Source: Candidatus Desulforudis audaxviator MP104C
GTDB lineage: Bacteria; Bacillota; Desulfotomaculia; Desulfotomaculales; Desulforudaceae
DNA: 64,000 bases
Direction of reading: 5' to 3'
Assembly: GCF_000018425.1 (NCBI RefSeq)
Contig: NC_010424.1
Span: 930,001 to 994,000, forward strand
Shown here: piece by piece, positions 2,792-38,845 of the stretch
How the letters are laid out: each line of letters begins with the position of its first letter
Position numbering within the stretch: position 1 is the stretch's first letter
Notes under the pieces: model-generated
Seen by the model: only the letters and a program-made list of their open reading frames with translations
What the model was told of the DNA's origin: nothing
The model's database searches: none
Position numbers and translations under genes: made by a program

Positions 2792-4684
2792 GTGCGGGTG
2801 CGGTTCCTGCCGGACGAAGTGCATGTTGAAATCAGGGAAGGCGAGTCCATCCTGGAACTTGCGGCGCGGGCCGGCATCACTCTGCGGGGCGCCTGCGGGG
2901 GCGATGGCACTTGCGGCCGCTGCCTGGTGGTGCTCCGGGAAGGTGCGGTCCAGGACGCCGATGGGATTGCCGTCGCCGGGACCGGGGCCGTGTTCCGGGC
3001 CTGTCGGTTCTACCCGGTGGGCGACCCGGTGATCGAAGTACCGGACACCTCGCGGCTGCACGAGCACCAGGTACTGACCGGTGACGGGGAGGAGGACGCG
3101 GCGCCGCTGTGGGCCCAGGAAGGGGTCGATGGACAGTTGGCCGATCCCCTTTTGCGCCGGGTGACCGTCTCCCTTGTGCCGCCGGAGCCCGGGGAAACGG
3201 CGGACGACTGGGGGCGGCTTGCCCTGGCGCTAGCGCGGGAGACCGGCGGGGAGGTCCGGGCCGATCTGGCCGTGCTCCGGGAACTGCCGGCCGTTCTGCG
3301 GGCGCGGGACTGGACGGTGACAGCGGATCTGGGAACGGCTGGGGGGCCGGAGCACGAGGTGGTGGCGGTTCAGCCGGGCCGGGCGGCGGGGCCGGCGTAC
3401 GGGGTGGCGGTTGACCTGGGAACCACCACGGTGGCGGCCCAGTTGGTTGATCTTGAGAGCGGTCGGGTGTTGGGCACAGCGGGCACCTATAACCGTCAGG
3501 CCGCCTATGGGGATGACGTGATTTCCCGGATTATCTTCGCCGGGGAGCATTCCGGGGGACGACGTCGGCTCCAGGAGGCGGTGGTGAACACGGTGAACAG
3601 CCTGTTGGCAGAGTTGCGGCGCCTGTGCGGGATCGAACGGGACGCGGTCCGGGCCGCCGTTTGCGCGGGCAACCCCACCATGAGCCACCTGTTTCTGGGG
3701 GTCGACCCGGCCCACATCCGGCTGGAACCCTACACTCCGGCGGCTAATTTCTGGCCGCCGTGCCGCGCGGACGATTTGGGGCTTGATCTCCACCCCCGGG
3801 CGCCCGTGCACGTTTTGCCGGGCGTGGCCAGCTACCTCGGCGGGGACATTACGGGGGGGCTCACGGCCTCCGGGTTCGGCGCGGAGGGGCGGACCGCCCT
3901 GTTCGTGGACATCGGGACCAACGGGGAAATGGTTTTAGGGGACGGGGATTGGCTGATCGGCTGTTCCTGTTCGGCGGGGCCCGCCTTTGAGGGCAGCGGG
4001 ATCACCTGCGGGATGCGGGCCGTCAGCGGGGCTATCGAGCGGGTGGGGGCCACGCCCGGCGGGTTCGAAGTGGTGTGCCGGGCCATCGGGGACGGTCCGC
4101 CGGCCGGGGTGTGCGGCTCCGGGCTGATCGCCGCCCTGGCGGGCTTGCGGCGGGCCGGGGTGATCAACCGGGCCGGGCAGTTTGAACCGGATTTGGAAAC
4201 GCCTCGTTTCCGGAGCGGCGACGCAGGAGAAGAGTTCGTGCTGGTCTGGGCCCGGGAAACGGCGCACGGCCGGGACATTGTCCTGACCGGGGCGGACCTC
4301 CAGAACCTGCTCCGCGCCAAGGCGGCGGTATACGCCGGACTGCGGACGCTTCTGGCCGCCGTGAATCTCGACCAGCAGGATATCAGCCGGGTGTACATCG
4401 CAGGCGGGTTCGGGCGGTTTCTGAACCTGCGGGAGGCCGTGGCCATCGGGATGCTTCCCGACATCGCCCCCGAGCGGTATACGTTTGTCGGGAACAGTTC
4501 CCTGCGGGGGGCGCGGGCCGCCCTGCTGTCGGGGCGTCGGCTGGCCGAGATCGGGGAGACGGCGCGCAGGATCACCTACCTTGAGCTGGGTGAGGGCACG
4601 CGGTTCATGGAAGAATACGTGTCGGCGCTCTTTTTGCCGCATACGGATATGGGGCTTTTCCCCTCAGTACGGGAGTGTGAATGA
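2792..4684 (+). CDS. acsV: Reductive activator of the corrinoid protein (RACo/AcsV), 2Fe-2S plus ASKHA ATPase
   Basis: This 630-residue protein uses ATP to drive an electron onto cob(II)amide of AcsCD, rescuing enzyme that has oxidised. Residues 1-95 are a plant-type [2Fe-2S] ferredoxin domain with C-x5-C-x2-C (GACGGDGTCGRC) and a distal cysteine near residue 71. The C-terminal two thirds is the DUF4445/ASKHA ATPase, with phosphate loops VDLGTTTVAAQLVD and FVDIGTNGEM and the late motif IAGGFGRFLN. Start GTG 2792 follows a G-rich ribosome site directly. The next gene starts 3 bases after its stop, which implies translational coupling. Confidence 0.93.
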   Translation: MRVRFLPDEVHVEIREGESILELAARAGITLRGACGGDGTCGRCLVVLREGAVQDADGIAVAGTGAVFRACRFYPVGDPVIEVPDTSRLHEHQVLTGDGEEDAAPLWAQEGVDGQLADPLLRRVTVSLVPPEPGETADDWGRLALALARETGGEVRADLAVLRELPAVLRARDWTVTADLGTAGGPEHEVVAVQPGRAAGPAYGVAVDLGTTTVAAQLVDLESGRVLGTAGTYNRQAAYGDDVISRIIFAGEHSGGRRRLQEAVVNTVNSLLAELRRLCGIERDAVRAAVCAGNPTMSHLFLGVDPAHIRLEPYTPAANFWPPCRADDLGLDLHPRAPVHVLPGVASYLGGDITGGLTASGFGAEGRTALFVDIGTNGEMVLGDGDWLIGCSCSAGPAFEGSGITCGMRAVSGAIERVGATPGGFEVVCRAIGDGPPAGVCGSGLIAALAGLRRAGVINRAGQFEPDLETPRFRSGDAGEEFVLVWARETAHGRDIVLTGADLQNLLRAKAAVYAGLRTLLAAVNLDQQDISRVYIAGGFGRFLNLREAVAIGMLPDIAPERYTFVGNSSLRGARAALLSGRRLAEIGETARRITYLELGEGTRFMEEYVSALFLPHTDMGLFPSVRECE

Positions 4685-33869: not shown

Positions 33870-34318
33870 TGCGGGCGGTGGTCCAGCGCGTCTCCCGGGG
33901 GGTGGTAACCGTCGGGGAAGAGACGGTGGGGGAGATCGGTCACGGTTTTGTGGTCCTTCTGGGAGTCGGTCGGGAAGACACCCCGGACGATGCCGCCTAC
34001 CTGGCCGAGAAGATCGCCAACCTGCGGGTATTCGCCGACGAGAACGGCAAGCTGAACCGTTCGGTGCTCGAAAACGGCGGCAGCGTTCTGGTCGTATCCC
34101 AGTTCACCCTGTTCGGGGACTGTCGCAAGGGGCGGCGGCCCGGTTTTTCGGCGGCCGCGCCGCCGGAGCGCGCCGTTGAATTGTACGCCGAGTTTGTGCG
34201 GCGGCTCGCCGCCCTGGGCGTGCCGACGGCTCAGGGGCGGTTTCAGGAACATATGGAAGTTTTGATCGTGAACGACGGTCCGGTAACCCTGATCCTGGAC
34301 AGCAGGAAGCTTTTTTGA
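33869..34318 (+). CDS. dtd: D-aminoacyl-tRNA deacylase
   Basis: This 149-residue enzyme removes D-amino acids wrongly attached to tRNA. It has the catalytic SQFTLFGD motif near residue 77 and the cross-subunit Gly-Pro motif [11 protein letters not shown] near the end. The dimeric fold and length are normal. GTG 33869 shares a base with the relA stop codon, and the next gene begins within its last codons, so relA-dtd-hydrolase is one transcript. Confidence 0.95.
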
Positions 34319-34335
34319 GGAGGGGAACGGGGGAA

Positions 34336-34977
34336 GTGCGAAGGCTGATCCTGGACACACTCGTGGTGGGAGCGCTGCAAACCAACTGCTACATCCTCGG
34401 CTGTCCCAATACCCGGGAGGCGCTGGTGATCGATCCCGGGGCGGAAGCGGAACTCATCGGCAGCACCCTGGACAAGCACGGGCTGAAATTGAAAACGGTC
34501 GTCCTCACCCACGGGCACGCCGACCATATCGGTGCCTGCGGGGAACTGCGGCGCGAGCCTGGTGTCACGCTGGCCATCCACCGGGAAGACGCGCCCCTGC
34601 TCTCCGACACGCACCGGAACCTCACTGCTTACATCGGCCCCCCGCTCACTCTATCCGCGGCGGAAACGCTACTCGGCGACGGGGACCGGGTGGAGTTCGG
34701 CGCCGGAATCCAACTGACTGTCCTGCACACCCCGGGGCACACCCGGGGAAGCATCTGCCTTTTGGGCGAGGGTTTCCTGTTCAGCGGCGACACGCTGTTC
34801 GCCGGGGCTGTGGGGCGAACGGATTTCCCCGGAGGGGATTTCAAAACGCTCATCGCTTCCCTGAAGAACCGGTTGGAGCCGCTTCCCGATGACACCCGGG
34901 TTTACCCGGGCCACGGGCCGGCGAGCACCATGGGGGTTGAAAAGCGGGAGAACCCCTACCTGACGACCGAATGGTGA
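34336..34977 (+). CDS. Metallo-beta-lactamase-fold hydrolase (glyoxalase II-like)
   Basis: This 213-residue hydrolase has the metal motif THGHADHIGACGEL near residue 60, HTPGHTRGSICLL near 130, FSGDTLFAGAVGRTD near 150 and the final PGHGPAST. It belongs to the YqgX/hydroxyacylglutathione hydrolase-like group, which hydrolyses thioesters such as S-lactoyl thiols; the actual substrate is unknown. GTG 34336 gives a normal N-terminus (RLILDTLVVGALQTNCYI). The in-frame TTG at 34315 overlaps dtd and is also possible. Genes following relA-dtd in Firmicutes often include this family. Confidence 0.85.
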   Translation: MRRLILDTLVVGALQTNCYILGCPNTREALVIDPGAEAELIGSTLDKHGLKLKTVVLTHGHADHIGACGELRREPGVTLAIHREDAPLLSDTHRNLTAYIGPPLTLSAAETLLGDGDRVEFGAGIQLTVLHTPGHTRGSICLLGEGFLFSGDTLFAGAVGRTDFPGGDFKTLIASLKNRLEPLPDDTRVYPGHGPASTMGVEKRENPYLTTEW

Positions 34978-35009: not shown

Positions 35010-35414
35010 ATGTTTAACGAAGAACCGCCGGAGGCCGGCGACAGGCGTTACACCATCGTGGTGACCGGTGACGGGGAGTTTCTGGTGGGCACGTGCGTGG
35101 AACTCGGGGTATCTGCGCAGGGGGGGACCCGGGAGGGGTGCCTGGAAAACCTGCGCGAGGCCATCGCCCTTTTTCTGGACGATGAACCGATTGTGCTTCC
35201 GGCCAAGGTGGTAAAAGCCCTGACAGCAGCCGGCTACCACGGGGTGAACAAGAGGGGCCGCCACATCAAGTTCCGCAAGTACGGCTCCCGGCCGGACACA
35301 CTGGTGCTGCCGAACGAAACCCGGTTGGCGCGTCATTTTATCGACCTGGTTTGCGCCCGGACCGGGTGCTCCCCGGAAGAACTCCAGGGCCCGGGAAACG
35401 GGACCGAGTCTTGA
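35010..35414 (+). CDS. Single-chain HicB-HicA toxin-antitoxin fusion
   Basis: This 134-residue protein has two recognisable halves. Residues 10-57 (RRYTIVVTGDGEFLVGTCVE, QGGTREGCLENLREAIALFL) match the HicB antitoxin fold (UPF0150). Residues 60-128 match the HicA/YcfA double-stranded-RNA-binding-like mRNA interferase: KVVKALTAAGYHGVNKRGRH, with the catalytic-type His in RGRH (usually GSH), then LVLPNETRLARH. HicA and HicB are normally separate genes. Here the antitoxin half lacks its usual C-terminal DNA-binding domain and runs straight into the toxin half. ATG 35010 has GGGGTGAGG close by; ATG 34971, overlapping the upstream gene, would add 13 residues. The hisS promoter overlaps its stop codon. 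Confidence 0.75.
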   Translation: MFNEEPPEAGDRRYTIVVTGDGEFLVGTCVELGVSAQGGTREGCLENLREAIALFLDDEPIVLPAKVVKALTAAGYHGVNKRGRHIKFRKYGSRPDTLVLPNETRLARHFIDLVCARTGCSPEELQGPGNGTES

Positions 35415-35439
35415 CAGATTCCTGCGCCCGGCATAAAAT
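35411..35439 (+). promoter_or_regulatory. Promoter for hisS-aspS
   Basis: TTGACA at 35411, a 17-base spacer and TAAAAT at 35434: a near-consensus sigma-A promoter. It overlaps the stop codon of the HicB-HicA fusion. Confidence 0.8.
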
Positions 35440-35469: not shown

Positions 35470-36738
35470 GTGCCAATGCTGATTTCCAGGCCGCGAGGTA
35501 CCAGCGACCTCCTGCCGGGGGATACGGCAAGGTGGCAGCGGGTGGAAGCGGTGATCCGGGACCTCTGCCGGGTTTACGGGTACGGGGAAATCCGCACACC
35601 GCTCTTTGAGGCCACGGAGCTTTTCCAGCGCGGCGTGGGTGATATCACCGACATCGTGGAAAAAGAGATGTACACCTTCACCGACAAAGGCGGCCGCAGC
35701 CTGACCCTGAGGCCCGAAGGAACCGCTCCGGTGACCCGGGCCTATCTGGAAAACGGCCTGCACGCCGTCCCGCAGCCGGTGAAGCTTTTTTACGTCGGGC
35801 CGATGTTCCGTTATGACCGGCCGCAGGCCGGGCGTTACCGCCAGTTCCACCAGTTCGGGGTGGAGATTTTCGGGGCGGCGGACCCGGCCGCCGACGCCGA
35901 AGTGATCGCGCTGGCGATGCACTTCTTCGACCGGCTGGGCTTGGCCGGCCTGGAACTGCATCTGAACAGCGTGGGCTGTCCCGGCTGCCGGGCGGTGCTG
36001 CGCAGAAAACTGGCGGACTATTTTGAGCCCCGGGCCGATGAATTGTGTGCAAACTGCAGAGGCCGCCTTAGGAAAAACCCGCTGCGGCTCCTGGACTGCA
36101 AGGAAGAGCGGTGCCGTGAGGCCGGGCGGGGCGCTCCCGTCCCAGTGGACTACCTGTGTCCGGAGTGCGGCGGTCATTTCGGCCGGGTGCAGCGTTATCT
36201 GGACCTCCTGGGAATAAGTTTCAAGCTGAACCCATGTCTGGTGCGCGGGCTGGACTACTATACCAGGACCGCCTTTGAAATTCTGGTCCCCGGGGGCGGC
36301 GCCCAGGACGCGGTGGGCGGCGGCGGCCGGTACGACGGGTTGGTGAGTGCCATCGGGGGGCCGGCCGTTCCCGGTGTCGGCTTCGCCTTGGGGCTCGAGC
36401 GGACGCTGCTTTTGTGGTCCAGGCAGGCCGGAGAAGAGGTCTTACCTCAGGGTCCGGTGGTGTTCATCGCCACCGCGGGGGAAACGGAGGAGACGGCCAC
36501 CGTGCTGCTGTCCGGACTGCGTGCGGCCGGCGTGCCCGCCGACCGCGAATACACCGGTCGGAGCCTCAAGGCGCAAATGAAGTTTGCCGCCAAGTTGGGT
36601 GCGCGCTGGGTGATCATTGTGGGTAAGGATGAACTGGAGGCCGGTGAGGTGATCCTGAGAGATATGGGGGCGGGCCTGCAAACTAGGGTTTCACTGGGGG
36701 AAGTCGTGGAGCGGCTGCGGCGAGACGCCCGAGGATAG
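35470..36738 (+). CDS. hisS: Histidyl-tRNA synthetase
   Basis: This 422-residue class II synthetase charges tRNA-His. It has PRGTSDLLP at the start, LRPEGTAPVTRAYLE near residue 80, motif 2 FRYDRPQAGRYRQFHQFG near 115, the HisRS signature GLDYYTRTAFEI near 260 and a C-terminal anticodon-binding domain (from about 330). Start GTG 35470 or ATG 35476; GGGAG lies 5-11 bases upstream. No T-box fits in the 55-base leader. aspS follows 17 bases later, the usual Firmicutes pairing. Confidence 0.96.
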   Translation: MPMLISRPRGTSDLLPGDTARWQRVEAVIRDLCRVYGYGEIRTPLFEATELFQRGVGDITDIVEKEMYTFTDKGGRSLTLRPEGTAPVTRAYLENGLHAVPQPVKLFYVGPMFRYDRPQAGRYRQFHQFGVEIFGAADPAADAEVIALAMHFFDRLGLAGLELHLNSVGCPGCRAVLRRKLADYFEPRADELCANCRGRLRKNPLRLLDCKEERCREAGRGAPVPVDYLCPECGGHFGRVQRYLDLLGISFKLNPCLVRGLDYYTRTAFEILVPGGGAQDAVGGGGRYDGLVSAIGGPAVPGVGFALGLERTLLLWSRQAGEEVLPQGPVVFIATAGETEETATVLLSGLRAAGVPADREYTGRSLKAQMKFAAKLGARWVIIVGKDELEAGEVILRDMGAGLQTRVSLGEVVERLRRDARG

Positions 36739-38629: not shown

Positions 38630-38845
38630 AGACCCGGGCAAACAGAATATGAGCACAAGCCCTACTTTGTCCGTGGCATTCTCGAAGTTCTGAGCCAACA
38701 CCGACGCATTGGGAGCCCGGCCTCTGGTTGCGGCTTGCAGGCCTCCGCCGCGAGGAAGCGAAAAACAACCAGGAGGGCACCCACCAGTTCTGAGATTGGG
38801 TTCAGGAAACTTTGAGCGGAGCCACGGCAATGTGGGGTTTTACTT
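38630..38845 (+). ncRNA. ssrS: Probable 6S RNA
   Basis: A 447-base gap after aspS holds a structured transcript with its own promoter. A long closing helix pairs CCCTACTTTG plus CCGTGGC (38660-38677) with GCCACGG plus CAATGTGGGG (38821-38837). It encloses an open middle region and a terminal arm near 38720-38775, and is followed by TTTTACTTTT. Size (about 190-215 bases), the long rod shape with a central bubble, and location beside aspS, where a Bacillus 6S gene also sits, all fit 6S RNA, the regulator that binds sigma-A RNA polymerase. The call rests on structure and position, not on a covariance search. Confidence 0.65.

Follow-up and report, generated by a model that had tools for sequence, protein, structure and literature searches.

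A fused HicB-HicA gene with a fixed place in a family of deep-subsurface bacteria resembles a retired and reused toxin-antitoxin pair more than one still in action

Among the HicA classes described to date, Class 12 comprises a fused layout of a small HicB followed by HicA (Gerdes 2024, PMC10865869), known from sequence and models only, and Class 2, the commonest bicistronic layout, is a hicBA pair with a short HicB that lacks a DNA-binding domain (PMC10865869). For the fused Classes 11-13 switchable self-inhibition was suggested by Gerdes by analogy with CapRel-SJ46, which is tethered yet switchable, and EzeT was noted in the same work as possessing its antitoxin in cis (PMC10865869). As to the HicA active site, mutagenesis of the B. 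pseudomallei HicA revealed Gly22 and His24 to be needed and Ser23 to be dispensable, with variant S23A still being toxic, and its authors described a second loop histidine, spatially near the first, for many HicAs (PMC3969222). In solved HicAB complexes the active-site histidine of HicA was found to be masked by HicB (PMC11594946).

The gene described here lies in a window of 64,000 nucleotides of Candidatus Desulforudis audaxviator MP104C (the whole stretch analysed; NC_010424.1, positions 930,001 to 994,000) and shares with Class 12 one gene encoding one small chain, HicB first and HicA second, without a recognisable DNA-binding domain; order and size resemble the hicBA of Class 2. As Class 12 already has this layout, the fusion itself is not new, contrary to what a preliminary description of the locus implied. 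The same description took a toxin-first order and a DNA-binding HicB tail as the norm, but this is not the only one, hicBA with a short HicB being the commonest two-gene layout (PMC10865869). Set against the published layout description of Class 12 only, this case differs and adds in three respects: (i) the gene is vertically inherited and fixed in a housekeeping cluster within a single bacterial family, (ii) one family genome (G004) has a natural deletion and (iii) HicB strand 4 and the HicA loop motif are consistently lost. Class 2 shares both domains and their order and is the likely ancestor, but consists of two genes, with a HicB tail carrying the fourth strand and a HicA carrying GSH, P-x-H and GTL. 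With the canonical HicAB systems (E. coli, Y. pestis HicAB3, B. pseudomallei, S. pneumoniae) both folds and the catalytic-type Gly and His are shared. CapRel-SJ46 and EzeT likewise unite toxin and antitoxin domains in one chain; their domains are unrelated, however, and they possess a known trigger or toxic activity, hence the comparison is one of analogy only. Since a single frame is found in seven genomes, the locus is not a type II module of two genes with separable toxin and antitoxin.

The genome around the window is a single contig of 2,349,476 bases, and the gene order at the locus is one which we take, with names assigned from the sequences, to be recJ, relA, dtd, an MBL-fold gene, the fused gene, hisS and aspS. 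The MBL-fold hydrolase gene (34315-34977, +; sequence motif HxHxDH) is located directly upstream and hisS (35470-36738, +) directly downstream of the fused gene (35010-35414, +), which is a single open frame from ATG to TGA encoding 134 amino acids plus stop. The surrounding stop-to-stop frame comprises 157 codons and offers a further ATG upstream, at 34971, which overlaps the preceding gene; the likely start is the ATG at 35010, behind the purine-rich GGGGTGAGGGA. Downstream of aspS a 6S RNA (RF00013, 86.4 bits) was identified at 38656-38842 (+).

The stretch 35010-35414 is confirmed to be an intact HicBA fusion whose halves are joined in one protein, an uninterrupted frame as well as profile-profile, fold and PDB matches bearing out the two recognisable halves proposed earlier. 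The HicB-like half was assigned to residues 13-58 (35046-35183, +) based on Pfam DUF7387/UPF0150, hhalign, AlphaFold2 and fold matches; its presence was thus correctly recognised before, while the boundaries of 10-57 given then had to be corrected. The HicA-like half, a dsRBD-like helix-beta-beta-beta-helix arrangement, covers residues 60-125 (35187-35384, +) according to Pfam HicA, hhalign and fold matches. When compared with Pfam HicA_toxin (PF07927), it yielded E 9.1e-5 alone and 2.6e-4 within the whole protein, with 21.5-22.9 bits covering profile positions 3-37/38 of 58, so that the fused protein stays below the gathering cut-off of 27; the same profile was matched by all seven fused orthologues (best E 8e-6). 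Likewise, the matches of the HicB half to DUF7387 (E 7.6e-5) and UPF0150 (E 9.6e-4) are both under cut-off. These Pfam scores are weak because the fusion family has diverged, as is illustrated by 21.5 bits for its HicA domain against 74 bits for one stand-alone HicA.

Profile-profile comparison by hhalign gave 98.7% (E 2.8e-16) for the HicA half against 14 stand-alone HicAs and 99.4% (E 9e-22) for the HicB half against 19 stand-alone HicBs, with 0.3% for the HicA half against HicBs as negative control. Among these 19 HicBs, 18 match DUF7387 and seven match HicB_lk_antitox, hence DUF7387 and HicB represent the same fold family. As the second half falls below the PF07927 cut-off and its homology follows from profile-profile and predicted-fold comparison, it is best named a diverged homologue of the HicA domain rather than a HicA toxin. 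The preliminary description had named two ways in which it could fail, namely a second half that does not score as HicA and a missed stop or frameshift between the halves; the former is countered by the profile-profile result, and no stop separates the halves in seven of the eight family genomes. NCBIfam and PADLOC scans of the fused protein returned no match, and neither the Pfam and NCBIfam scans nor the AlphaFold2 model revealed a DNA-binding or other extra domain, in agreement with what had been claimed.

Structure prediction returned a HicB-like and a HicA-like fold. AlphaFold2 (41 sequences; pLDDT 83.5, pTM 0.55) predicted the element order E E E H / H E E E H, the HicB half (E16-21, E24-29, E34-38, H41-56) ending at its helix, and the same elements were obtained when only the seven fused sequences were used (pTM 0.53). 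At these pTM values the relative placement of the two halves is not predicted. VIA-align matched residues 63-120 to HicA of S. pneumoniae and B. pseudomallei (Z 6.3 each) and residues 10-59 to TTHA1756, B. pseudomallei HicB and E. coli HicB (Z about 6), values which are modest because the domains are small; PDB fold matches were 5yrz_B, 6g26_F and 1whz for the HicA half and 2yzt, 6g1c and 6hpb_B for the HicB half. Considered together with the sequence evidence, these matches are convincing for HicA and HicB folds of the modelled domains. Many dsRBD chains were also aligned to the HicB half (VIA-align, Z about 5-6), which was read as a common simple topology and not as evidence for RNA binding.

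HicB possesses a beta-beta-beta-alpha-beta partial RNase H fold, of which the first four elements are predicted here and the last strand is missing from sequence and model alike. Past the helix, 29 of 30 stand-alone HicBs carry a tail, usually about 19-21 residues long and usually closed by a strand (e.g., TVEVAI), and this tail is missing in all seven fusions, where the HicB helix (LFLDD) passes via EP into IVLP, the start of HicA. This junction (residues 59-64, EPIVLP; 35184-35201, +) was delimited by comparison with stand-alone HicBs and HicAs, and as the tail is gone there, the join is not a mere loss of a stop codon but involved removal of the tail. What is truly missing from the HicB half, as judged from sequence and model, is hence the fourth beta strand.

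Within the HicA half, GRH (residues 83-85; 35256-35264, +) occupies the beta1-beta2 turn, where an alignment of the seven fusions and the mutagenesis reported in PMC3969222 place the essential residues: Gly (G83) and the catalytic-type His (H85) are conserved in 7/7 fusions, so the key histidine of RGRH is indeed retained, and Arg takes the place of the Ser of canonical GSH throughout. The surrounding GVNKRGRHI-FR-YG block over the active-site loop is likewise invariant in all seven. A different picture was obtained by alignment with stand-alone HicAs for the beta3-alpha2 loop and helix start (residues 101-110, PNETRLARHF; 35310-35339, +). All 14 stand-alone HicAs carry GSH and P-x-H-x-E, and 13 carry GTL or a one-residue variant; in every fusion the second His is lost, P-N being followed by E, A or T in its place, and GTL is absent. 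As the toxicity-essential Gly and His are kept and S23A is still toxic, RNase activity of the fused HicA half is possible, though its catalytic neighbourhood is rebuilt.

Fused orthologues were identified in seven of the eight family genomes covered (the window gene and six relatives), each located between the MBL-fold gene and hisS; the same chromosomal spot is hence kept through a family of deep-subsurface bacteria. The proposed search for further fused homologues and their context thus yielded six, and outside the family none passed the thresholds applied in 113 genomes of the class or 398 of the phylum. The two-gene hicB-hicA pairs of class and phylum matched by one half each, and a pair without DNA-binding domain, i.e., of the Class 2 type, is the likely source as far as sequence comparison can tell. 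The same genome harbours a separate, ordinary hicB-hicA pair (L001 1235-1671, genome about 795365-795801) encoding 83 and 62 amino acids with a 4-base overlap, its HicA scoring above the Pfam cut-off. A phage or plasmid origin of the fusion was considered and rejected, as phage records, viral contigs and PADLOC gave no match to it and plasmid matches were two-gene pairs or partial only. One plasmid match from Leptospira looked fused in one tblastn piece, but stops separate its halves; in this plasmid (Leptospira noguchii p2, L096 690-1175) an unannotated HicB-like frame directly precedes an annotated HicA gene, with in-frame stops between.

In the eighth family genome, G004, only a frameshifted internal-deletion remnant is left (L065, complement of about 3660-3900): a 5' part lies beside the last codons, and behind them the hisS promoter is intact. 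As G004 and the carrier G006 are sisters in the hisS tree (support 97/93), G004 is nested among carriers, so its state represents a loss and the fused gene is dispensable. G003 and G005 are family members by collection labels and their position in the hisS tree is unresolved; a single origin therefore rests on the common locus and sequence.

Ahead of hisS, a promoter-like TTGACA-17-TAAAAT is found (35411-35439, +), whose -35 box in the window shares bases with the stop codon that ends the fused gene. Similar sites, varying in spacing and last bases, are present in all family members and in the outgroups G012 and G008, where MBL gene and hisS are separated by 118-141 nt without trace of the fused gene; the fused gene therefore arrived just upstream of this promoter. 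Upstream of the fused gene, as far as the MBL gene, no promoter-like site was seen, and from this arrangement we infer that the fused gene may be co-transcribed with relA, dtd and the MBL gene. In the two closest relatives, G001 and G002, the fused gene is intact although a roughly 330-base repeat-containing segment (L005 753-1098 and L004 1162-1490, respectively) sets it apart from the MBL gene; parts of this segment occur in dozens of copies in G002 and in 14 in the window's genome. The relA-dtd-hisS setting was earlier regarded as a meaningful translation-stress context, a functional clue which had to be rejected: dtd-MBL-hisS is among the usual gene clusters of the order and exists in the outgroups without the fusion, and the context is therefore uninformative on function.

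Given the fixed family-wide locus and the loss of parts of both halves, a retired and reused pair is favoured over an active one. That a former two-gene pair became a fused, domesticated single-chain HicBA, not an addictive toxin-antitoxin switch, is a reading we would put at even chances, domestication itself being plausible, not proven. It would start with a short hicB-hicA pair free of a DNA-binding domain, which in the family ancestor probably came to lie behind the MBL gene and ahead of the hisS promoter and there lost the HicB tail, i.e., linker, fourth beta strand and stop, by a deletion yielding one gene. Carried on the relA-dtd-MBL transcript, its product would be a domesticated single-chain RNA-binding protein in which the HicB half packs on the HicA half of the same or a partner chain, so that RNA would be bound through the HicA half, the HicB half would serve as a built-in lid or partner and RNase activity would be weak, narrowed or held in check; a role as RNA-binding regulator may be envisaged from this. 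The kept toxicity-essential residues, the loss in G004 and the low pTM values (0.55/0.53) speak against the domesticated reading.

The main competitor assumes a switchable effector whose HicA active site stays covered by the HicB half until a signal displaces the latter (e.g., a phage protein or proteolysis), as for CapRel-SJ46. By that analogy it is possible, though rather unlikely: the catalytic Gly and His are kept in 7/7 fusions, HicB masks that His in solved complexes (PMC11594946) and self-inhibition was proposed for Classes 11-13 (PMC10865869), but the gene occupies a fixed housekeeping locus through the whole family, phage, plasmid or viral carriers were not found, loop His and GTL are lost and HicB is one strand short. 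The preliminary description argued that a toxin with its inhibitor permanently tethered is unlikely to be switchable, which is unsafe given CapRel-SJ46 and the EzeT antitoxin in cis; tethering therefore does not decide between domestication and self-inhibition. Far less probable is an ordinary toxin-antitoxin function in trans, in which chains dimerise, each HicA is inhibited by the HicB of the partner chain and toxin is set free by excess or misfolding. A linker of few residues may block packing within one chain and the relative domain position is undefined in the AlphaFold2 models, yet the autoregulatory DNA-binding domain is missing and a single chain fixes a 1:1 ratio, so that selective antitoxin decay frees no toxin without cleavage.

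A functionless, decaying relic of a toxin-antitoxin pair, to which the diverged HicA (21.5 versus 74 bits stand-alone) and the loss in G004 would point, is a shade more improbable still. Relative to the window gene, Nei-Gojobori dN/dS amounts to about 0.18-0.29 for the fusion, 0.12-0.24 for MBL and 0.16-0.22 for hisS, values which are rough where dS exceeds 1, as in several comparisons; persisting at such distances and with an intact frame in seven genomes, they make a relic unlikely. The fused gene is, by this sequence measure, under purifying selection like its neighbours, with both halves constrained, and this conservation pattern fits the retained, domesticated gene envisaged earlier. An artefact, i.e., a missed stop or frameshift joining two separate genes, is refuted to near certainty, no supporting point having been found, as the halves are joined in the same frame in each of seven independent assemblies, and the tail and intergenic stretch of two-gene pairs are missing there, which excludes a sequencing frameshift.

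Returning to the domesticated single-chain HicBA, a more specific version, which we offer tentatively and consider doubtful, is that HicB without its last strand may act as lid or second RNA-binding module, that the rebuilt-loop HicA may act on a specific cellular RNA and that the fusion may thus be a family-specific housekeeping RNA-binding protein which is itself controlled by the relA operon. For Class 12 at large, a vertically inherited case of this kind, which combines a series of intact genes with one natural deletion and uniform changes at the active site, makes domestication testable.
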